A DNA stretch of 45,088 bases, taken from positions 1 to 45,088 of the IMG/VR virus record IMGVR_UViG_3300034631_000024; one strand, 5' to 3'. The notes under the pieces were generated by a model that saw only the letters and a program-made list of their open reading frames with translations, was not told where the DNA came from and did not search any database. The stretch is from a virus. The position numbers were made by a program, and so were the translations under genes. This document shows positions 5,505-45,088 of the stretch, piece after piece (position 1 is the first letter of the stretch; each line of letters opens with the position of its first letter).

Positions 5505-6719
5505 TCACCTGTGTACTGCAAAGGATAGCGTCGTGGGGCCGTTGTCGTCGGTCCACAGGTAGAACCCTGCGGTGTCGTAACCGTATGCCCCACCCTTCTG
5601 AAGATCGTTCGTGGTCGTGACGCTGTAGTTCGCGTCCGGCATTGCCGTGGAGAAGTTGACCCGGTAGCGGCCAACAGCCTGATAGACGATGGATGATATG
5701 CCTCGTGATGCCCTCAGTAGACCGTTAGAGGGGTTATAGTTGCCCCAGGCGCGGCAGGGGATGTCGAGGAACAGCCCATTGAAGCCCGGTATAACGCTCC
5801 AGAATTGACCATCGAGCGCCGCGTTTAGCAGCTCGATGTCGAAGCCGGTACGCCAGCTGAAGTGTGCGCCAGTGGGGTTCTGATAGAGCGCCCGGAAGAT
5901 CATGCCCCAGGTGGCGTCGGCGTATATGACTCCCGAAACGTAGCTGCCGCCAGCACCAAGGATCAGGGAGCCGCCGAGCCCTAACCCGCCCGACATTGTG
6001 TCGCCAGCTTGATTGACGTAGCGGGCATCTAGTTCAGTGGCCGTCTTATAGACCCGATCCCATTCACCCCAAATCTTGTCCCGCTTATGTTTGCGATAGG
6101 ATTTCGTGTCGCCGGGGCCTGCTGTCACGAAGTCCGAACCTTCGATGACAATGAAGTCTGGCGAGTTGACCGTCACCAGTGCCGTGAACCAGCCGGGAGC
6201 AGGTGCATTGGCGGCGTTGTCTCCGATGTACCAGCCGTTCTCCGTAACGGCGTGCCAGTCGGTGATGTTTTTGGCAACAATACCGAGGCGCCCCAAACCC
6301 CGCAGCAGTTCGCGTGCCGATAGGGGAAGGTCCGTGAGCGCCATCGAGCCGGCGCCATTGAAGTACGGCATCTTATCGCCGCCGGCACCGTTCAGATTTC
6401 CCAGAGAGGTCAGGTTCCCGCCCGTCAGCAGGTTGACCATGCGGGTGAGGTAACTATCAACTCGCGCAGAGTCCGGCACACGATAGACGGTGTATTTGTA
6501 GGGACCCTGGTGAGTGCCAGCGAAGGGCTCAGTCAGAGTGATCGAGGTGTCCGAGTTCACGGAAGCGACCACGGCCATTTGACCCACGTAGTTGAAGATC
6601 TGGTCGCCGGGCATGACGTTGGCCAGCCATGCGGTGCCCTGGCCCGTCACCGTAGCCGATCCGTCGAAGGTTGCTGTTCCAGCGCGGTAATATGGATCGA
6701 TCTGAGTTGAGAGGGACAT
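5505..6719 (-). CDS. tail fibre / receptor-binding protein
   Basis: 404 residues from the ATG with AGGAG seven bases upstream; an upstream in-frame codon at 6755 is less likely. The N-terminal 100 residues (YYRAGTATFDGSATVTGQGT, PGDQIF, DTSITLTEPFAG) match the phage-particle-binding module found on many siphophage fibres. A central region carries NGWYIGDNAANAP and WGEWDRVYK, typical of receptor-binding fibres. Next comes YVNQAGDTMSGGLGL, the repeat unit of fibre shafts. The C-terminus (ANYSVTTTNDL, ending LSFAVHR) is beta-rich, as in fibre tips. It should bind the host surface and set host range. Confidence 0.8.
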   Translation of the reverse strand: MSLSTQIDPYYRAGTATFDGSATVTGQGTAWLANVMPGDQIFNYVGQMAVVASVNSDTSITLTEPFAGTHQGPYKYTVYRVPDSARVDSYLTRMVNLLTGGNLTSLGNLNGAGGDKMPYFNGAGSMALTDLPLSARELLRGLGRLGIVAKNITDWHAVTENGWYIGDNAANAPAPGWFTALVTVNSPDFIVIEGSDFVTAGPGDTKSYRKHKRDKIWGEWDRVYKTATELDARYVNQAGDTMSGGLGLGGSLILGAGGSYVSGVIYADATWGMIFRALYQNPTGAHFSWRTGFDIELLNAALDGQFWSVIPGFNGLFLDIPCRAWGNYNPSNGLLRASRGISSIVYQAVGRYRVNFSTAMPDANYSVTTTNDLQKGGAYGYDTAGFYLWTDDNGPTTLSFAVHR

Positions 6720-28608: not shown

Positions 28609-30408
28609 CTAAAGGCCCGAATCGGGCATCCAGCCAGGATCGCCGGCAGGGGGCTGCGGGGGTGCGGGGCGCGGATCTGCGACGCTGGGGACATCGCCCA
28701 GTCTCACGTCGAGATAGCTATAGGTGCGGCCCTTTTTCTTCTTGATGCCCAGCGCATTAAGCCGCAGACCGAAGGCCGTCTGCTGATAGGGTTTGAGACC
28801 GTTGGCCTCGCACCATTTGGTATAGGCGACATACATGTCGCTCGCGTTGACTTCGTAGCCGGGCTTGGAGACCAGGCACGATTCCACGAAAATGCCGACG
28901 GGGTCGCGTTCCTCGCGATAGTCCTCAGTGAATGCCTTCACTGTCGACGGGATGTAAGGGGTCAGACCTGCTGACAGGTAGAGCATCAGCCCGTCCAAAA
29001 GCCAATTGAGGATGCCCGGTCGCTCAGCGTCGAACATCTTCATCATATCGCCGAACGGCCGGCGCTCGCCCTCCGGTACCGTATAGCCCCAGGGAATGAT
29101 CTTGAGGCGGCGCCAGATGCCATAGTCCGTGCCACTGACGCTGGGCATGTCATTGCCACTCATGTTGGTGACAAAGATGGGGTCGAACTCAAAGAACTCC
29201 TTTTGCAGGAAGCGCGCGACCATCTTGGTGCCGCCTGAGGCGGCCTTGATCATGTTCTCTTTGAGACCGATGCCACGCGGGAGCTCTTCGACCGTCACAT
29301 AGCGGCTGTTGACCAGGCGAGCGATATCAGGGCTGGCCTGCTGTCCCTGCTTCTGCTGGTCGCCAGTGAAGGTTTCCGGTGACACCACTGCACGGTAGCC
29401 GCCGGCCATCCGACCAAGCGCTTCAATGAACACCGACTTTCCGTTGGCGCCCGAACCGTAATGGAAGAAAACGACTTGCTCATCATTGCCACCGATCAGC
29501 AGGGCATAGGCCTGCCCCACCTGCAGGAATGTGCGCATCACGGGATCAGGTTGCACCGTTTCCAAGAACTTGAGGAACTGGGGGCACTCTGCCTGGGGAT
29601 CATATGCGACATCGGCAACCCGGGTGATCATGTCGTCACGATCGGGATGGTCTGCGAATTCGATGTGGCCGGCCAGTCGCTCACTGCCCTCTTCCCGCTC
29701 CGGATCCGGAACGCGCGAGAAGGTCAGTGTGCCGTTTAGCACATTGAACTTCATATGGTTGGCGTCGAGCACCTTGGGATCGACTGCCTTCATGCTGGCC
29801 GCCTGCGCGACCATGGCAACGGTCCGCCCGCGGTTCCCTGAGGTAACCGCAAAGTTGCGACGCTTCGACTTCCGCTCTGCCAGGGCGTCGCGGAGGCTCT
29901 CGCCTGTTTTGACCAGCTTCTTTTCAGCAGCGCTGCGCTCGTCGATCGGCTTTTTCTCGGCAGCTTCCGCCGCCGCGAGCAGTTTGATGGCGCCCGGCGA
30001 GTGCTCGAGCACCAGGGCTTCGAGCTTAATCTTGTCCACCACGTACTGCCCGCGCAAGAGCACCTCGAGCTCGGCATCATCACGCACCCAATGCGTGCTC
30101 CGGAACACGAGCCAGCCCATGCCCGGTACATAGGCGAGATCGAGGCCGAACCAGTAGATGAGACGGCGGGCGTTATCGCGGTCGTTCTGGTCATAGCGCG
30201 CACAGAACCGTGCGCCCTCCAGCTCGACGGGGTCATGGTCGATCGGCTTGCCATCTTCATCGAGCGACTCTGGAGGTGGCGCCGGACGGCCGTCGCCGGC
30301 AGGTTCATCGCCTTTGCCGCCATCGACGACGGTGAGCGTCACCTGCCGCTTGCGCTGCATCGCCTTCTTGACCGCTTCGGTCTTTAGGTCCTCGGGGGTA
30401 TCAGTCAC
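28609..30408 (-). CDS. P4/D5-type primase-helicase
   Basis: 599 residues. The central part is a superfamily 3-like helicase: Walker A HYGSGANGKSVFIEALG near residue 318, TVEELPRGIGLKENMIKAAS, then MVARFLQKEFFEFDPIFVTN, and an arginine-finger-like GIWRRLKIIPW. Upstream lies the D5_N region (CPQFLKFLETVQPDP). The C-terminus has the D5-type winged helix (YVAYTKWCEANGLKPYQQTA, then FGLRLNALGIKKKKGRTYSY). It should unwind the phage origin. GTG start overlaps the previous stop (GTGA). A related winged helix stands alone in the gene at 38754. Confidence 0.9.
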   Translation of the reverse strand: MTDTPEDLKTEAVKKAMQRKRQVTLTVVDGGKGDEPAGDGRPAPPPESLDEDGKPIDHDPVELEGARFCARYDQNDRDNARRLIYWFGLDLAYVPGMGWLVFRSTHWVRDDAELEVLLRGQYVVDKIKLEALVLEHSPGAIKLLAAAEAAEKKPIDERSAAEKKLVKTGESLRDALAERKSKRRNFAVTSGNRGRTVAMVAQAASMKAVDPKVLDANHMKFNVLNGTLTFSRVPDPEREEGSERLAGHIEFADHPDRDDMITRVADVAYDPQAECPQFLKFLETVQPDPVMRTFLQVGQAYALLIGGNDEQVVFFHYGSGANGKSVFIEALGRMAGGYRAVVSPETFTGDQQKQGQQASPDIARLVNSRYVTVEELPRGIGLKENMIKAASGGTKMVARFLQKEFFEFDPIFVTNMSGNDMPSVSGTDYGIWRRLKIIPWGYTVPEGERRPFGDMMKMFDAERPGILNWLLDGLMLYLSAGLTPYIPSTVKAFTEDYREERDPVGIFVESCLVSKPGYEVNASDMYVAYTKWCEANGLKPYQQTAFGLRLNALGIKKKKGRTYSYLDVRLGDVPSVADPRPAPPQPPAGDPGWMPDSGL

Positions 30409-35177: not shown

Positions 35178-36538
35178 GCCTCGGCCCTCCGGCGGTTCGA
35201 TGCCGCAACGGCCTCGCGCTGCCGATCGCGGCTGGAGAGGCCGAGCGTGCGCCGCCTGCCTTTGATCTGGTTGACGGTCAGGCCAGTGCGCACCGCAAGT
35301 TCGGCGAGCGCGGTACGGGCGACGTCGCCCTCACGAATGATTGCGTCGATCTCTGCGGTGAAAAGAGGAGACGCGTCGGGACCGGCGCCGACGCTCGCCC
35401 TACTCACATCTCCCGCCACGCTGTCGGCCGGCTCTTTGCCGAGCTCGGTCGCGCCGCCGTCTGCGGATGCTTTCGCTTGGGATTCTTCCGGAGCCTCATA
35501 GCCCCAGCGCGCCCAGCCGGTCCGCGCCGCGCGGGCGTTGAGCTCGATCTTGGGCAGGCTGGGGAAGTAGGCTTCGATGATCTCGTAGAACTTGAGTGGC
35601 TTGGCCGAGTGCCCGCCGAGCGGCGCTTCGATGACCGAGGCGAACTGGTCGCCCATCGCTGGCGCCGGCACATGGCCGCGCGTCCCGATCAGCAGCAGCT
35701 CATGCTTGTTGCGCACCCAATAGCCGGTGCCGATCCGGTCCTTGTGCCAGGAGAAGTGCGACTTGTAGGCAAAACCCCAGGCCTTCATGACCTCGAGCGC
35801 TTCCACCAACATCGGCACGGTCGCCCACAGGAACAGCACGCAATCATCGGCGGCGAGCGAGCCAACATCGCGGCCCTTGATCGTCTCAAGGTCCGAGGTC
35901 GGGTAGTGATTGTCGGCCGACCGATCCATGCCGGTCTCTTCCGAGTAAGTTTGGAACTTCCACTCGGGATCGGCATAGATCACGCCGAACTTGGCCTCCG
36001 GCAGCGCCGCCTGTTTCTTGCCCAGCTCGGCCTCACGCTCTGCGCGCTTCGCCTTCTTGCCAGCAGTCGAAACATCCTTGAGCGGGTTCACCATCACGGC
36101 GTCACCAGAGACGATCTTTTCGCGCATGGCCGCCAGGGTCTGCTCGAACTCACCCTTGCCCAACCGCGCCCACTTCTGCGAGCGCGACGAGAGCTTGTGG
36201 TCTATGCCGGCATCCTTGAGGGTAGCCTTCGAAAATACTTCCACTTCGGTAGCATTATCGTCCTCACCATCGTCGCTCTCTGGTGCGTCCAGGTTGGACT
36301 TGCCAGGGCGACCGACGCCGAACTGCCCCTGTTCCTTGGCATGGGTCAGGAGAACGCCGAGGTGCCGTTCCGCACGCACGTAGATCTCGCTCACATCGGC
36401 GAGCATGGAGCGGTCCTTGAGCTGCCGAGCACGGACCTTGGCCTGTTCCGCCCAGTTGCGGATCTCGAGGACCTCGTCGACGCGCCGGGCTTCGGCCAGA
36501 GCAGCCTTGGCTGCCTCATAGCGGATCATGGACGTCAT
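35174..36538 (-). CDS. MT-A70 family DNA adenine methyltransferase
   Basis: 454 residues. The N-terminal part is helical with a phage-typical YVRAERHLGVLLTHAKEQGQ region. The methyltransferase domain (about 180-345) has GVIYADPEWKFQTYS, a DPEW version of the DPPW catalytic motif. Also present are DCVLFLWATVPMLVEALEVM, KHELLLIGTRGHVPAP and HSAKPLKFYEIIEAYFP. The C-terminus ends in a likely DNA-binding helical segment (VRTGLTVNQIKGRRRTLGLS). Probably adds N6-methyl to phage DNA, perhaps against restriction. ATGA coupling both sides. Confidence 0.87.
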   Translation of the reverse strand: MTSMIRYEAAKAALAEARRVDEVLEIRNWAEQAKVRARQLKDRSMLADVSEIYVRAERHLGVLLTHAKEQGQFGVGRPGKSNLDAPESDDGEDDNATEVEVFSKATLKDAGIDHKLSSRSQKWARLGKGEFEQTLAAMREKIVSGDAVMVNPLKDVSTAGKKAKRAEREAELGKKQAALPEAKFGVIYADPEWKFQTYSEETGMDRSADNHYPTSDLETIKGRDVGSLAADDCVLFLWATVPMLVEALEVMKAWGFAYKSHFSWHKDRIGTGYWVRNKHELLLIGTRGHVPAPAMGDQFASVIEAPLGGHSAKPLKFYEIIEAYFPSLPKIELNARAARTGWARWGYEAPEESQAKASADGGATELGKEPADSVAGDVSRASVGAGPDASPLFTAEIDAIIREGDVARTALAELAVRTGLTVNQIKGRRRTLGLSSRDRQREAVAASNRRRAEA

Positions 36539-37005
36539 GCTTCGCCTCCCGCTTCGGCTTCAACCTGCAGCTTGAGCAGTGCCAGCTTAGCAATCGCGCC
36601 GTGGATCTCGTCGAGGATGCCGGCAGCGTCCTTGCTGCAGATCGCGCCATCAGCGCGGGCGGCGCCCAGCGCCACGAAGACATCACCGATTTCCTTGAGA
36701 GCCTCGGCGCTTACCCGATCGAGCGGCGCGCCATCGAGGGCGACCGCTGGCAGCGGCACCAGGATGTGGTTGCAGAGCAGCGCGAGCTGTTCGGTCACCA
36801 CTGGGCCAGCCTCGGCCTCGAGGTCGGCAACCACGTCGATCGGCATGAACAGCCGGTGATCGGCCTGGCCATATTCACTCAACTGCTGCTGCCGCACCCT
36901 GGTGGCGACGGCCGCTTTGGGGCCACGCCCTGAGGCGGTGACCAGTTGGCGGGTGGCGCCCTTGAGCGCGAAATAGTCGGCGGCGGGAAGCTGGCGGCCG
37001 TTCAT
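36535..37005 (-). CDS. hypothetical early phage protein
   Basis: 156 residues from the ATG with GGGAG upstream. A basic N-terminal region (NGRQLPAADYFALKGATRQL, VTASGRGPKAAVATRVRQQQ) suggests DNA contact. Next comes LSEYGQADHRLFMPIDVVAD and a helical acidic part. First gene of the continuous replication-side chain. No named family recognised. Confidence 0.6.
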   Translation of the reverse strand: MNGRQLPAADYFALKGATRQLVTASGRGPKAAVATRVRQQQLSEYGQADHRLFMPIDVVADLEAEAGPVVTEQLALLCNHILVPLPAVALDGAPLDRVSAEALKEIGDVFVALGAARADGAICSKDAAGILDEIHGAIAKLALLKLQVEAEAGGEA

Positions 37006-37258
37006 GGCGTAGCTCCCCCGGCACATACCGGATGACGGCCACGGTTTGGGCGTGAGACCAAACCGATATGGACAACACCAGAGACGATGAGATCGGGCCT
37101 GAGCTGCGGGAAGCGGTTACCGCCCTGCGCCGCATGAAGCGAACTGCCCGCGCGGGGCTGAGGGAGGCAAACCCGCGCGGGCAAAGTACGGGCGCGCCGA
37201 GGGAGGAGGAGGCCCCCAGCATGAGCAGCGCACCCGATGGGAAGATACGGTGAGCCGG
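37006..37258. other. non-coding or weakly coding leader with two inverted repeats
   Basis: About 250 bp between the early left genes. It holds CGGTTTGG (37042-37049) / CCAAACCG (37058-37065), spacer 8, close upstream of the early gene at 37005. It also holds GCCCGCGCGGG (37146-37156) / CCCGCGCGGGC (37172-37182). A + strand frame 37068-37253 (61 codons) has a poor ribosome site. Function could be a leader, antitermination site or operator. Confidence 0.45.
37068..37253 (+). CDS. possible small protein opposite the early leader
   Basis: 61 residues, MDNTRDDEIGPELREAVTAL and further charged sequence. It runs against the early leftward transcript, has no good Shine-Dalgarno sequence and is low in hydrophobic residues. 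Listed only because the frame is intact and no leftward gene occupies this space. Confidence 0.2.
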   Translation: MDNTRDDEIGPELREAVTALRRMKRTARAGLREANPRGQSTGAPREEEAPSMSSAPDGKIR

Positions 37259-37429
37259 TCATCGCCGATCACCTGCAGGAAGGGTCGAGCGCAGACGATA
37301 GAGGGCGCGCTGCTTGACGCCCGGTGTCAGCACCAGGTCGCGGGGCCGAACGCCCGAGCGCATGATGTGGCGCAAGGCATCAGTGCGGGCACGGCTTTCA
37401 GCAGCGGTCATGCGGTTTGGGCGCTTCAT
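37259..37429 (-). CDS. small basic protein after Cro-like gene
   Basis: 56 residues, Arg-rich (MKRPNRMTAAESRARTDALR, then SGVRPRDLVL). ATG overlaps the Cro-like stop (ATGA). Could be a small DNA-binding regulator made from the early leftward promoter. No family recognised. Confidence 0.55.
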   Translation of the reverse strand: MKRPNRMTAAESRARTDALRHIMRSGVRPRDLVLTPGVKQRALYRLRSTLPAGDRR

Positions 37430-37629
37430 GGCTGCGCCTCGGCTAGAATGAAGTCGTTCGGGGTGACGGCATGGCCGGTAACCTCGGCGATCATGCGCAT
37501 CTGGTCTGGGCGCGGGGTGCGTTCGCCTCGAAGCCACTTTCTGAGTCCCGACACAGAAACGTCCCCGATCTGGGAGGCCATCTGCTCTTCGCTGAGGTTG
37601 TGCATGGTCATGTATGACGCGAGTTTCAT
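37426..37629 (-). CDS. Cro-like helix-turn-helix regulator
   Basis: 67 residues with one HTH (LSEEQMASQIGDVSVSGLRK, then WLRGERTPRP), the size and shape of Cro/YdaS-type early repressors. It is divergent from the CI-like gene, first in the leftward early operon. Expected to compete at the shared operators and commit to lytic growth. Confidence 0.85.
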   Translation of the reverse strand: MKLASYMTMHNLSEEQMASQIGDVSVSGLRKWLRGERTPRPDQMRMIAEVTGHAVTPNDFILAEAQP

Positions 37630-37636
37630 GCGTCAT

Positions 37637-37664
37637 AAGTTACCCAAATTGGGTGCCTTTGCAA
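37637..37664 (-). promoter_or_regulatory. early leftward promoter with operator in the spacer
   Basis: Minus strand: -35 TTGCAA (37664-37659), 16-bp spacer, -10 TAACTT (37642-37637). Operator 37642-37654 fills the spacer. Reads toward the Cro-like gene. The element is nearly the same as the rightward promoter at 38697-38725. Confidence 0.7.
37642..37654. promoter_or_regulatory. phage operator 1
   Basis: ACCCAAATTGGGT, a perfect palindrome around a central A. Covers the leftward early promoter, so binding should block cro and the replication genes. Confidence 0.85.
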
Positions 37665-37677
37665 TCCCAAATTGGGG
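37665..37677. promoter_or_regulatory. phage operator 2
   Basis: TCCCAAATTGGGG; the inner 11 bases match operator 1. Centre is 23 bp from operator 1, and it lies just upstream of the position of the repressor -35 box, where a bound repressor could activate its own promoter. Confidence 0.8.
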
Positions 37678-37702
37678 AGCGCCAGTGCAATTCTGATGCG
37701 CT

Positions 37703-37708
37703 TAGTAT
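37703..37708 (+). promoter_or_regulatory. -10 element of repressor promoter (PRM-like)
   Basis: TAGTAT lies 7 bases before the cI ATG, so transcription would begin at or next to that ATG. No good -35 hexamer stands 16-18 bp upstream and no Shine-Dalgarno precedes the start. This fits a weak, repressor-activated promoter making leaderless mRNA, as lambda PRM does. Confidence 0.6.
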
Positions 37709-37714
37709 CCCGCC

Positions 37715-38326
37715 ATGGGTAACTCACTAAAGATATTGAGAGAACAGCGTCGGTGGACACAGGAACAAGCGGCTGAGAAGCTCGGTTTGTCCAAGTCTGG
37801 CTATGTGAAGCTGGAGCGTGGCGAGCGCGGTCTCAAGGATGAAATGATCGCGAAGGCTGCCCGACTCTATGGAGTGTCGAACGCTGAGATTCTCGGCGAC
37901 AGTGACACGGGGGTTCGCGAGATCCCGGTGATGGGCAGGATTGGTGCCGGCGGGGACATAGACCCGGATTACGAGCAAGTGCCACCCGAGGGCCTTTTCA
38001 CAGTTACGGTTCCCTTTCCTTTGCCTGACGACATGATGGCACTCGAAGTGCAAGGGGATTCCATGCTCCCGCGTTACGATCATGGTGACGTGATTATAGT
38101 GTGGAAGGAGCAACGTAAGCCTGTGGAGGCTTTTTTGGGTACAGAGGTCGCCGTTCTGACCAGCAGCGGCCGGCGCTTTCTTAAGACGCTGCAGAAGGCG
38201 GGGTCTCTTTTTAACCTGCTGTCCTGGAACGCTCGCCCAATCGAAAATGTAGGCGTCCGGTGGGTGGGCGAGATCTACATAGTGGTACGAGCACCCCAAG
38301 TGCAAAAGGCATGGGTGGGACGATGA
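37715..38326 (+). CDS. CI-like repressor, HTH + S24 peptidase
   Basis: 203 residues. XRE-type HTH at 5-60 (WTQEQAAEKLGLSKSGYVKL, RGERGL). Self-cleaving C-terminal domain: likely cleavage site A78-G79 in GRIGAGG, nucleophile S116 in VQGDSMLPRYDHGDVI, general base K157 in RFLKTLQKAG. Maintains lysogeny and should be inactivated by RecA in the SOS response, giving induction. Its operators are predicted at 37642, 37665, 38685 and 38708. The next gene overlaps by ATGA. Confidence 0.92.
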   Translation: MGNSLKILREQRRWTQEQAAEKLGLSKSGYVKLERGERGLKDEMIAKAARLYGVSNAEILGDSDTGVREIPVMGRIGAGGDIDPDYEQVPPEGLFTVTVPFPLPDDMMALEVQGDSMLPRYDHGDVIIVWKEQRKPVEAFLGTEVAVLTSSGRRFLKTLQKAGSLFNLLSWNARPIENVGVRWVGEIYIVVRAPQVQKAWVGR

Positions 38327-38667
38327 AGCAAAAGGTATTTCCCCAAGCGTTCGCTGTTCTGCTGATTAGCGGTATGACCGTCGGGCCCCTCCTCTCCAGC
38401 GAGGGACCAACTGAATTGCTCTACTTATGCGAAGAGGCGATCCACGACGTTCTGCTGGCGCCCTCAACTTATCAACAAATAGCCGTAAGCTATCTTGATG
38501 AGCGCTCGGTCTACATCGAGTACGACTCGGATAACGAGTATGGGGTGCCTGTTCGGGGCCGGGTCACCTGCGAAGCCCCACCGCTTGAGGCGGCCGTAAC
38601 GAGATTCAGCCTTCGGATAAACGGCGGCCCGTACATGAAATGGCTGCACGAGAACCGGTACAACTAG
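38323..38667 (+). CDS. exported small protein coupled to the repressor
   Basis: 114 residues. The N-terminus (MKQKVFPQAFAVLLISGMTV plus GPLLSS) is a signal peptide with likely cleavage before EGPTEL. The mature part has two Cys (LYLCEEAIHDVLLAPSTYQQ and YGVPVRGRVTCEAPP), probably a disulfide. The pattern (C, APSTY, Y/FD..N.YG.PVRG, C) occurs in small periplasmic proteins of unknown role. ATGA coupling to cI means it should be made in the lysogen. Superinfection exclusion or another surface change is a reasonable guess, not shown. Confidence 0.65.
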   Translation: MKQKVFPQAFAVLLISGMTVGPLLSSEGPTELLYLCEEAIHDVLLAPSTYQQIAVSYLDERSVYIEYDSDNEYGVPVRGRVTCEAPPLEAAVTRFSLRINGGPYMKWLHENRYN

Positions 38668-38684
38668 CCCATTGCGGCAAAGCA

Positions 38685-38697
38685 CCCCAAATTGGGT
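38685..38697. promoter_or_regulatory. phage operator 3
   Basis: CCCCAAATTGGGT, 12 of 13 bases equal to operator 1. It overlaps the -35 region of the rightward promoter. Confidence 0.8.
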
Positions 38698-38725
38698 TGC
38701 TAAAGTGACCCAGTTTGGGTAGCTT
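38697..38725 (+). promoter_or_regulatory. rightward promoter with operator in the spacer
   Basis: -35 TTGCTA (38697-38702), 17-bp spacer, -10 TAGCTT (38720-38725). Operator 4 lies in the spacer. Drives the gene at 38754 and those after it toward the integrase. Confidence 0.7.
38708..38720. promoter_or_regulatory. phage operator 4
   Basis: ACCCAGTTTGGGT, 11 of 13 bases equal to operator 1. Centre 23 bp from operator 3, the same spacing as operators 1 and 2. Confidence 0.8.
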
Positions 38726-38753: not shown

Positions 38754-39455
38754 ATGCTCGCACACACATCCGAACAGCCGGCAGCTGCCTGCCACTGCCA
38801 GATCAACTCCGATCCCGAGATCTTTGAGCCGACTGTCGAGGCGCTCGCCGAGGCGATGCGCAGCCAGTTCCCCAATTGCACCGAAGAGACGCTGCAGGTC
38901 GTAGGCTTTCCGCTTTCGTTCCAGCGTCAGCACGGCGACGCCGCCCGCAAGCTCGCCACCAAGACGTTCGTGCGCCAGCTAAACACGCCCGAGGATCGAG
39001 CCGGCCGCGTCGAGAAGGCCGCCAACATGGCCGCTGGTCTCGTGGCCCATGACGCCATCGCCACGTACCTCCTGAGCAACGGCTTCCGGCCGCGCGAGCT
39101 CGGCGACATCATGCCCGACGTGATCAGCCGCATGTGCGAGATCGTCGTCGGCCAAGCCAACGAACCGACCCAGATGGTTCCACCCCAGGCGTACGACAGC
39201 GTCAGCGTTTTCGCTGAGACCTGCATCGCCAAGGCCGAAGGCGACAAGGTACCTGCTGGGCAGCTCTACCAGCACTATGCCGGGTGGTGCGAGGCAAACC
39301 GCGTCCGGGCCGTTCCGCAGCGCAGCTTCGGTGACCGTTTGCAGGACCTCGGCTTCAAGAAACAGCGCGGCGCCCTCTACTATTATCTGGATGTGTGCCT
39401 ACGCCAGTTTGGAACTCGCGCCACCAGCGCAGCAGTTCGGCAGGCTCACTCATGA
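38754..39455 (+). CDS. orphan D5-type winged-helix protein of the right operon
   Basis: 233 residues from the ATG with GGAGG upstream. The first half is helical, with a conserved-looking KLATKTFVRQLNTPEDRAGR block and Cys residues near the start. The C-terminal 70 residues (LYQHYAGWCEANRVRAVPQR, then FGDRLQDLGFKKQRGALYYY) match the winged helix that ends the phage's own primase-helicase. No ATPase motifs. It could bind the origin or a regulatory site, or act as directionality or copy regulator. First gene after the rightward operators; coupled to the next gene (ATGA). Confidence 0.7.
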   Translation: MLAHTSEQPAAACHCQINSDPEIFEPTVEALAEAMRSQFPNCTEETLQVVGFPLSFQRQHGDAARKLATKTFVRQLNTPEDRAGRVEKAANMAAGLVAHDAIATYLLSNGFRPRELGDIMPDVISRMCEIVVGQANEPTQMVPPQAYDSVSVFAETCIAKAEGDKVPAGQLYQHYAGWCEANRVRAVPQRSFGDRLQDLGFKKQRGALYYYLDVCLRQFGTRATSAAVRQAHS

Positions 39456-40381: not shown

Positions 40382-42025
<1,644 letters not shown>

Positions 42026-42238: not shown

Positions 42239-43279
42239 ATGATGAAGCTGAAGCGGTTAGGCAGAACTGATCTTGAGGTCACCGAAATCTGCCTGGGAAC
42301 CATGACCTGGGGCAGCCAGAACACCGAAGCGGAAGGACATGCGCAGATTGACCTGGCGCTCCAGGCCGGCGTCAACTTCATGGACACGGCCGAGCTCTAT
42401 GCCGTCCCTGGCAGCCTTGAAACTTCAGGTCGGACCGAAATCATTATCGGCAATTGGCTGAAGAATACTAGCAAGCGCGACCGCTGGATAATCGCCAGCA
42501 AGATCGCCGGCGGCGGCAATAGCTTCATTCGCAATGGCCAGCGCGCCGACGGCGCGTCAATCCGCATTGCTCTCGAGGACAGCCTTAAGCGATTACAGAC
42601 GGACTACCTTGATCTCTACCAGATCCACTGGGCATCGCGGGGCAGCTACAACTTCGACAATGGCTGGAGCTATGCGCCGCATACGCAGGACACTGCAGAT
42701 GTCATCGACAATATCACCGACATGCTGGAGACGCTCGGTGATCTGGTCAGAGAGGGCAAGATCCGCCATGTCGGGGTTTCCAACGAGACCACATGGGGCA
42801 TCGCTCAGTGGCTTCGCATCGCTGACGAGCGTAATCTGCCGCGCCTCGTATCGGTTCAGAACGAGTACAGCCTGATACGTCGGCAATTCGATCTCGACCT
42901 TGCCGAACTCAGCCACCACGAAGATGTAGGCCTGCTGGCCTATTCGCCGCTTGCAGCCGGGTTGCTCACGGGAAAATATGCCGGTGGACAGGTCCCCCAA
43001 GGCAGCCGCGCCGACTATCAAAAGGCGTTCTGGCGCCTGAACCCGATCTCGGAAGCCGCTGCCAACGACTATGTAACCTTGGCCAAGCGGCACAACCTTG
43101 ATCCGGCGCAGATGGCAATCGCCTTCGCCCTATCCCGTCCCTTCATGACCTCGGTCATTGTGGGCGCCACCAGTACGGCGCAACTCGCGAATGCCTTGGC
43201 AGCACGTGACGTGACCCTATCGCCTGAAATTCTCGACGAAATCGAGGCAATACACCGCCGCTATCCTCGCCCGATCTGA
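42239..43279 (+). CDS. aldo/keto reductase (Tas-like)
   Basis: 346 residues. NADPH-dependent reductase with a TIM barrel. Tetrad D49 and Y54 (FMDTAELY), K88 (IIASKIAG), H130 (DLYQIHW). Further family blocks: REGKIRHVGVSNET, VSVQNEYSLI, LLAYSPLAAGLLTGKY, SVIVGAT near the end. Size and motifs fit the Tas/YghZ-like group. Two adjacent ATGs. Host gene next to tRNA-fMet. Confidence 0.9.
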   Translation: MMKLKRLGRTDLEVTEICLGTMTWGSQNTEAEGHAQIDLALQAGVNFMDTAELYAVPGSLETSGRTEIIIGNWLKNTSKRDRWIIASKIAGGGNSFIRNGQRADGASIRIALEDSLKRLQTDYLDLYQIHWASRGSYNFDNGWSYAPHTQDTADVIDNITDMLETLGDLVREGKIRHVGVSNETTWGIAQWLRIADERNLPRLVSVQNEYSLIRRQFDLDLAELSHHEDVGLLAYSPLAAGLLTGKYAGGQVPQGSRADYQKAFWRLNPISEAAANDYVTLAKRHNLDPAQMAIAFALSRPFMTSVIVGATSTAQLANALAARDVTLSPEILDEIEAIHRRYPRPI

Positions 43280-43331
43280 TCTCTCGCGTAGCGAGCGGAT
43301 CACGCTATAAAGGGACAGATGGAGGCCAGGC

Positions 43332-44030
43332 ATGACGCTGATTTCGACGCTATTCCCGCTGATCTGCTACCTGGCTTACAACATCGTGGTGCCGCAGGTG
43401 GAAAAGCTGCGGCCCTCCCTATCGGTGATCATGAACCTGCAGCGCCGCCGGTGGGTGGCCAATGCGGCCCGCCGCGACACACCATTCGACGCCATTCTCT
43501 CTGGCAACATCATGCAGTCGGTCAGTTTCCTAGCGTCGACCGCGGTTCTCCTGGTGCTGGCGGTGTTCGCCGTCTTCGGGCAATTGCCGGCCCTCATGCA
43601 GGCCCTGGAGTCACTGTCTCTCGATCGCACCTATTCCATCGTCGAGGTGCAACTGCACTTGGTCGTCATGCTGGCCATGTTTGTGCTGGCTTTTTTCGCC
43701 TTCACCCTGTCCCTGCGCCAGTTCAATCACTTCTGCATCATGTTGGGTGCCATGGACCAGGAAACCGCCAACAGCGAGGCGGAGGTGGATGCCATTGCGC
43801 GGATGAACGCGCTGGGGGCGCAGAACTTCAATAGCGGCATTCGCGCCTACTATTTCTCGGTGGCGACGGTCGCCTGGTTCGCGTCCGAATGGCTCTCCAT
43901 CGCGGTTTGTGTGGCCACCATCCTCATCCTTGCCCATCGCGAGTTCTTTTCCTCGGCGCACCGCACAGCCGCCTCGGCGGCCGTGATCGCGGCCCGCCGC
44001 CATGCCGGTGAAAAGCAGAAAGTTTCCTGA
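43332..44030 (+). CDS. DUF599 family membrane protein
   Basis: 232 residues with four main hydrophobic segments: residues 1-20, 55-80 (SVSFLASTAVLLVLAVFAVF), 108-128 (LHLVVMLAMFVLAFFAFTLS) and 180-200. The blocks NIMQSVSFLASTAVL and FAFTLSLRQFNHFCIMLGAM fit the DUF599 family of unknown role. Host gene. Confidence 0.75.
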   Translation: MTLISTLFPLICYLAYNIVVPQVEKLRPSLSVIMNLQRRRWVANAARRDTPFDAILSGNIMQSVSFLASTAVLLVLAVFAVFGQLPALMQALESLSLDRTYSIVEVQLHLVVMLAMFVLAFFAFTLSLRQFNHFCIMLGAMDQETANSEAEVDAIARMNALGAQNFNSGIRAYYFSVATVAWFASEWLSIAVCVATILILAHREFFSSAHRTAASAAVIAARRHAGEKQKVS

Positions 44031-44048
44031 TCGGCAGGAGCGCCCCGT

Positions 44049-44855
44049 TCACTCGCCGAGATGCTCCCGCAGAAACGCGGCAACATCCTTGAGGACAGGA
44101 GCGGTCCAGCGGCCGGGTACGGCAAGCGCCAGCACGGTTCCGGCGTGCTTGAGCTTCTCATAGTGCCGCTCGACCACGGGCACGCCGAGGGTGCGGAGCC
44201 GTTTGGCGAGTGCCACGGTGTTGCGAGGTTGAACCAACCGATCCTGGCCGCCCGTCCCCAGAAACATCGGGGGCACATGGCTGCCGGCATGTTGGATCGG
44301 CTGAGTGTCTCGCGGATCTGGCACGGCACCGAAGGTTCGCAGGGATATCGGACCATCGAAGGGAAAGAAATCGTAGGGCCCAGATAGGCCGACAACGCAT
44401 TTCACCCGGCTGAGCAATCCCGCACGGGCAAGATACGCCTCATCGAGCACCAGCATCAGGGCATTGTAGGCCCCGGCCGAGTGCCCCGCGACTGCAATCT
44501 GGTTGGGATCCCCGCCGAACTGGCCGATTTGCCGCGCCACCCAGCGGAAGGCCTCAAGACCATCCTGGACAAAGCCGGGATATTCCACTTCGGGCACCAG
44601 CCGGTAGTCGGCGATAACGGTTACATAGCCCAGCGCAGCAAGGGCACGGCCGGCAAACTCATAATATCGGCGGTCGCCGTCCCGCCACGAACCACCATAG
44701 ATAAAGAACACCACCGGGCGCGGCTTCCGCATGCGCCTGTGTGCATAGATGTCCAGCTTGTGCCGATCCGCCGGACCATAGGAAATGTCATGGGCTACTC
44801 TGCGCGAACTCAGGTCCTTGGGGACCAACGCATTGGCGATACTGAATAGATTCAA
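44049..44855 (-). CDS. alpha/beta hydrolase (carboxylesterase-like)
   Basis: 268 residues. Oxyanion region FFIYGGSW (HGG-type with Tyr), nucleophile S126 in VAGHSAGAY, acid D205 in GTGGQDRLV, base H237 in KLKHAGT. No signal peptide is clear. Starts at TTG, the only reasonable codon after the upstream stop, with GGAG 11-14 bases before. Likely acts on small esters; substrate unknown. Confidence 0.82.
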   Translation of the reverse strand: MNLFSIANALVPKDLSSRRVAHDISYGPADRHKLDIYAHRRMRKPRPVVFFIYGGSWRDGDRRYYEFAGRALAALGYVTVIADYRLVPEVEYPGFVQDGLEAFRWVARQIGQFGGDPNQIAVAGHSAGAYNALMLVLDEAYLARAGLLSRVKCVVGLSGPYDFFPFDGPISLRTFGAVPDPRDTQPIQHAGSHVPPMFLGTGGQDRLVQPRNTVALAKRLRTLGVPVVERHYEKLKHAGTVLALAVPGRWTAPVLKDVAAFLREHLGE

Positions 44856-44970
44856 GGCAACGATAACTCCGGACAGTCACGATATACGTTCCCAACGGAA
44901 GACCGGTTCAGCGCTTGCACACCGTTGTGAGGAGATCACACTTGTGCGCATGTCCACTTGCGACAATATC

Positions 44971-44985
44971 TGACATTGACAATCA
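44971..44985. promoter_or_regulatory. IRO-type iron box (RirA-like site) before bfd
   Basis: TGACATTGACAATCA fits the TGA-N9-TCA rule for RirA boxes of rhizobia. It overlaps a -35 TTGACA (44976-44981) with a possible -10 TTTATG after 18 bp. About 55 bp from the bfd start, so iron could repress this gene. Rest of 44856-45038 shows no gene. Confidence 0.55.
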
Positions 44986-45038
44986 GCTAATGTGGTCGCT
45001 TTATGCGCCCGATAGCTCCACCGGACCTTTGGGCGCCA

Positions 45039-45088
45039 ATGCTCGTCTGCCAGTGCAACATGATCACGTCGAAAGAGATCGAGGACAT
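45039..45088 (+). CDS. bfd: bacterioferritin-associated ferredoxin, 5' part
   Basis: Only 16 residues are in the window: MLVCQCNMITSKEIED. The C-x-C near the start, followed by a short helix, matches the [2Fe-2S]-binding N-terminus of Bfd, which reduces ferric iron in bacterioferritin. Cut by the window edge. An iron-box-like site upstream supports the call. Confidence 0.7.
   Translation, partial: MLVCQCNMITSKEIED

Follow-up and report, generated by a model that had tools for sequence, protein, structure and literature searches.

A predicted lambda-type CI/Cro immunity region with paired palindromic operators and its alphaproteobacterial relatives

Four copies of a 13-bp palindrome lie in two pairs at either end of a repressor gene region in a prophage, and the question is whether they are the operators of one immunity switch. 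The window, meaning the whole 45,088-nucleotide stretch that was analyzed, is the IMG/VR record IMGVR_UViG_3300034631_000024, a virus record consisting of a lone contig that contains the prophage. The region very probably governs the immunity of a temperate phage and works as a lambda-type CI/Cro switch. It would have one OR-like and one OL-like region and a leaderless cI mRNA, with O2 placed to activate PRM and O3 to shut it off.

Genes and control sites of the window

The minus strand of the window carries lysis, tail, head, replication, and regulatory genes, and the plus strand carries a right operon with a serine integrase. The features of the control region and its flanks are as follows.

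Downstream of the cro-like and CII-like genes, minus strand: MT-A70, ParB-like, primase, and D5 helicase genes
36535–37026, minus strand: CII-like regulator in the cro operon (phrog_101, 4.5e-12; Phage_CP76 slightly under the Pfam cut-off)
37426–37629, minus strand: Cro-like HTH protein, 67 aa (Pfam HTH_3, 2.7e-8)
37637–37664, minus strand: PR-like promoter, TTGCAA (37664–37659), 16-bp spacer with operator, TAACTT (37642–37637)
37642–37654, no strand: operator O1 (OR side), between the -35 and the -10 of the cro promoter
37665–37677, no strand: operator O2 (OR side), centred at about -44 relative to the cI ATG
37679–37708, plus strand: PRM-like promoter between O2 and O3, weak -35 directly after O2, -10 TAGTAT at -12 to -7
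37708–37720, no strand: operator O3, TCCCGCCATGGGT, across the start codon of cI (ATG at 37715)
37715–38326, plus strand: CI-like repressor, 203 aa, HTH and S24 autopeptidase domain (S116, K157, cleavage A78-G79)
38323–38667, plus strand: small ORF without a known family, which overlaps the stop codon of cI and occupies the place that rex has in lambda
38685–38697, no strand: operator OL1, immediately upstream of the -35 and touching it
38697–38725, plus strand: PL-like promoter, TTGCTA (38697–38702), 17-bp spacer with operator, TAGCTT (38720–38725)
38708–38720, no strand: operator OL2, in the -35/-10 spacer of the right promoter
38754–39455, plus strand: first gene of the right operon, Pox_D5 C-terminal domain (Pfam, 2.2e-8), preceded by a GGAGG ribosome site
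40382–41992, plus strand: serine integrase at the distal end of the right operon, Resolvase and Recombinase domains (phrog_95 integrase, 6.3e-92)

The preliminary description had placed the palindromes at 37642 and 37665 and at 38685 and 38708. All four are found there and nowhere else in the window, and the 23-bp spacing given for the pairs is exact in each. Compared with ACCCAAATTGGGT, the sites at 37642, 37665, and 38685 have zero, two, and one mismatches, respectively, and the site at 38708 has two, or one on the opposite strand. In the 45,088 bp, four copies of the 11-bp core CCCANNNTGGG are present, all within the two pairs, compared with a mean of 0.96 copies in Markov simulations of the window. 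Close operator pairs arose by chance in only 1 of 300 window simulations, compared with the two observed.

That description had also counted two sites per region. Each region does contain two strong sites, but the cI side has a third, weaker one, O3, which was absent from the earlier list of sites. The left half of O3 is degenerate in the window, as in most relatives, and the site scores 2.7 compared with 14–20 for the other window sites. On the OL side, a search of the window by eye found no third site, so that the count of two stands here, but some relatives have a third OL site.

The promoter geometry, with an operator inside the -35/-10 spacer, is as described at both pairs. Because a simple sigma-70 scan of the window calls neither the PR-like nor the PL-like promoter, both being poor consensus matches, the promoters were identified by their geometry and by conservation in relatives. 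The geometry of the PR-like promoter is kept in relatives, and many relatives have TTGACA and TAATAT at the PL-like promoter. The cro mRNA is predicted to be leaderless, or nearly so. At the PRM-like promoter, where the -35 of the window itself is weak, the conserved columns in relatives are G-15 (79%), A-12 (81%), and T-8 (77%), a pattern that would fit the extended -10 of a leaderless cI transcript. The cI mRNA is likewise predicted to be leaderless, with a start site placed from the sequence.

The first gene product of the right operon (38754–39455) is 45% identical over 69 aa to the C terminus of the D5 helicase of the prophage (28609–30408), and it is possibly a stand-alone replication modulator. 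Past the integrase, positions 42239–45088 hold genes that look chromosomal (aldo/keto reductase, DUF599, alpha/beta hydrolase), and for this reason the right prophage end is probably near 42.0–42.2 kb. No exact repeats longer than 12 bp were found between the window ends, and therefore no attachment site is proposed.

Operators in relatives and in host genomes

A first scan by operator pair recovered members of a family. As such a scan selects for the result, genomes and viral contigs were then searched by the HTH protein alone, which gave 72 loci. The viral set overlaps partly with the operator-selected set, and the genome set is independent of it except via the query: the 60-aa HTH alone was aligned, from the loci of the operator-pair scan and the window. 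All 21 loci with a named host are from Alphaproteobacteria; the genera include Devosia, Rhizobium, Neorhizobium, Mesorhizobium, Methylobacterium/Methylorubrum, Inquilinus, Aureimonas, and Chelatococcus, and Brucella tritici is also represented. In the genus of the genome that bears locus L083, the search for closer relatives gave just L083 and weak matches, mostly to the S24 domain.

In the 72 loci, CCCANNNTGGG was counted 95 times at -130 to +20 of the cI start, 90 times at +300 to +3500, and 3 times in the remaining ~580 kb; the reversed control pattern gave 0, 1, and 4 in the same three regions. At least one strict site is present at OR in 55 loci and at OL in 45, with variants in most of the others. 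A number of relatives have no OL site at the threshold used, several of them being truncated by contig ends. The right operons of relatives contain RecT, YqaJ, pol III beta, and integrases.

The spacing of the sites takes few values. O1 and O2 are 23/24 bp apart in 25 loci and 33/34 bp apart in 14, with nothing else observed, and O1 is kept at -72/-74 or -82/-84 from the cI ATG. The OL pair is spaced by 22–26 bp in 33 loci and by 32–33 bp in 2. The ten-bp step corresponds to roughly one turn of the helix, which fits a need for the dimers to occupy the same face of the DNA. The layout recurs as well: at OR, the spacer of the cro promoter contains O1, with the cro -35 between O1 and O2, and at OL an operator is followed by TTGACA, by a second operator in the spacer, and by TAATAT.

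In nearly all relatives, the third cI-side operator lies at -6 relative to the cI ATG, over the start codon. CCC at -6 to -4 together with ATGGG makes up this third palindrome. It could instead be incidental, a by-product of two other features, the conserved Met-Gly start and the C-richness of the -10/+1 region, since ATGGG encodes a nearly invariant Met-Gly, and the degeneracy of O3 in the window would agree with this. However, the CCC is noncoding, and it is conserved at 97, 89, and 97% in 49 non-redundant loci; the Methylobacterium clade has it here as well. The O2–O3 distance is moreover fixed at 42–45 bp (36 loci). We regard a by-product as unlikely and an operator on the start codon as the better reading.

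It is less likely still that the palindromes serve mainly Cro or another phage regulator and that CI binds elsewhere. A Cro homologue adjoins cI in 68 of the 72 relatives and is linked to the sites there, and Cro, like CI, is an HTH protein encoded nearby. Yet the cI-side operators are retained in L093, L138, L139, and L141, four loci in which no Cro homologue was detected, and the sites track the HTH of CI: they are absent where proteins have mainly the S24 domain in common and differ in the HTH (L005, L079, L080, and L082). This favors CI as the protein that recognizes the palindromes.

The preliminary description had named many copies elsewhere in the host genome as an observation that would count against such operators. 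Counts were made in hosts of the relatives, in 12 whole genomes (~66 Mb), and gave 13 close pairs, 0–2 per genome. In the eight genomes with a match, every close pair is at the prophage cI region, and the reversed control gave none. Single CCCANNNTGGG sites occur 33–53 times per genome, compared with 18–47 for the control pattern (four genomes). Because the single 11-mer is about as frequent as the control, the pairing is the specific feature. That the pairs are boxes of a general host regulator borrowed by the phage, and not a phage immunity system, is very improbable: single sites do occur elsewhere in host genomes, but they are little above control, and the prophage switch is the only place where pairs occur.

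Many other viral contigs carry the same close pair without a detectable homologue of the window CI or Cro, and these were left uncounted. Some are short fragments, and others probably belong to different phage groups whose operators look similar. Eight contigs (L011, L020, L021, L027, L031, L033, L041, and L063) carry triplets of the form ACCCAAATTGGGT-GCCCATTTTGGGT-ACCCAAGTTGGGT with 22–23-bp spacing; no homologue of the window CI or Cro was detected in them, and their operators are possibly convergent.

The proposed switch and its variation

In the proposed switch, CI, through its HTH and with a self-cleaving S24 domain, would bind the 13-bp palindromes in both regions. At OR it would sit inside the cro promoter (O1) and beside the -35 of its own promoter (O2), and at OL both within and next to the promoter that drives the recombination/integration operon. 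CI on O1 and on the OL pair would keep both lytic promoters silent, and CI on O2 would be positioned to activate cI transcription. When abundant, CI would also occupy the weaker O3, over the leaderless cI start codon, and turn cI off. The same sites probably serve Cro as well, which is made from the opposite promoter. After DNA damage, CI would cleave itself and so release the switch. The sites, their spacing and conservation, their joint change within one clade, the protein families, and the cleavage residues are read from sequence, and from these we infer binding, the leaderless start, the role of Cro, and SOS induction; it is the geometry that suggests cooperativity, activation of PRM from O2, autorepression at O3, and OR–OL looping.

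In 20 aligned CI proteins, G79, S116, and K157 do not vary at all, and A78 hardly varies. The predicted structure of CI has a mean pLDDT of 88.5. Lambda repressor and its RecA complex are among its best structural matches, and Foldseek also matches it to LexA. The agreement is at the domain level, and whole-chain TM-scores against lambda repressor are low (0.34–0.48). Two relatives (L122 and L123, cI at 6001) have a short CI of 115 and 100 aa without an S24 domain and with conserved operators. Going by these sequences, SOS cleavage is not universal in the relatives, and induction in the two must work by a different route.

One clade has a different form of the operator. The Methylobacterium loci have CCCT...AGGG at O1, at O2, and, in five loci, at the OL pair, and this form accounts for a single site in 56 canonical loci. 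HTH positions 39, 43, and 44 differ in the clade; G39 is present in the window too. The full set of operator variants is not separated by any one HTH residue, and as determinants of the variants the three positions may offer only a lead.

The segment between cI and OL, which corresponds to the position of rex in lambda, ranges from 2 to ~2,240 bp in relatives and differs in gene content. Its cargo includes a DRT-type reverse transcriptase, Drt8 (3.3e-130), and the type IV restriction enzyme Mrr, and also an AAA protein (PDC-S59) and a MerR-DUF433/PIN-like pair. Defence-type cargo lies at L113:6700-8310, L130:6641-8374, L109:6908-8128, and L122:7053-8128.

On balance, we favor the view that the loci form a widespread alphaproteobacterial immunity family. 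In it, operator code and repressor HTH would have changed together, across both regions and on one or more occasions (CCCA to CCCT), spacing would shift only by whole helical turns, the cI start codon would double as an operator half-site, and the cI–OL segment would be a swappable slot for defence genes.

Comparison with lambda and with alphaproteobacterial phages

The PR operon of lambda contains cro, cII, O, and P, and its PL operon contains the red genes, xis, and int. Lambda has a weak PRM, a leaderless cI, and a rex slot after cI. It also has three operators per region, a feature that is not common to all lambda-like phages. The layout described here is the wiring of lambda itself, in a variant of the known design. 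As in lambda, cI lies between two operator clusters, cI and cro diverge with operators between them, cII follows downstream of cro, and the operators overlap both lytic promoters. CI has the S24 self-cleavage domain with its cleavage site and Ser/Lys dyad, a "rex" slot follows cI, and a weak PRM precedes a cI that is predicted to be leaderless. The placement of cro and replication on one side and recombination and integration on the other, which had been presented as a departure from lambda, is indeed found, but lambda has the same arrangement.

The differences from lambda are of another kind. The operator is CCCANNNTGGG, and in place of three operators per region there are two strong sites and the weak start-codon site at OR and two sites at OL in the window, OL having a third site in some relatives only. 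On the cI side, the third site is on the start codon, 43–44 bp from O2, leaving PRM free between them; O1–O2 may gain a whole helical turn; and the integrase of the window is of the serine type.

The nearest named system from Alphaproteobacteria is that of Rhizobium phage 16-3. This phage has an operator of a different type from CCCANNNTGGG, and it was not among the matches listed when the window CI or the family HTH was used in tblastn against the phage collection. Like the window prophage, it is an alphaproteobacterial temperate phage with two operators in each of two regions; its C repressor acts with oL1, oL2, oR1, and oR2 (PMC12429752). Operators have been reported as not found in alphaproteobacterial phages (PMC4729917; PMC12429752), and the authors of the BiPBO1 study were unable to predict them (PMC4729917). 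A full-text literature search with the operator strings gave no relevant paper among the matches listed. The operator pair is specific enough to spot these switches by sequence across genera, and therefore prophages that are likely to share immunity can be predicted. The dozens of natural spacing and operator variants also provide a comparative data set for CI recognition and same-face cooperativity.

Bench tests of the model are possible with Mesorhizobium phage vB_MseS-P1, which has been isolated and is inducible (PMC11409702). The words "operator" and "promoter" are absent from the main text of that paper (PMC11409702). The phage belongs to the family, as its HTH is 69.5% identical to that of a family member and its gene order is the same. 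Its sites are CCCCATTTTGGGG-TTGACA-ACACAGTATGGGG at OL and CCCCGCTATGGGA at O3. Unlike the window, it has a tyrosine integrase, and its operators at OR are asymmetric variants.
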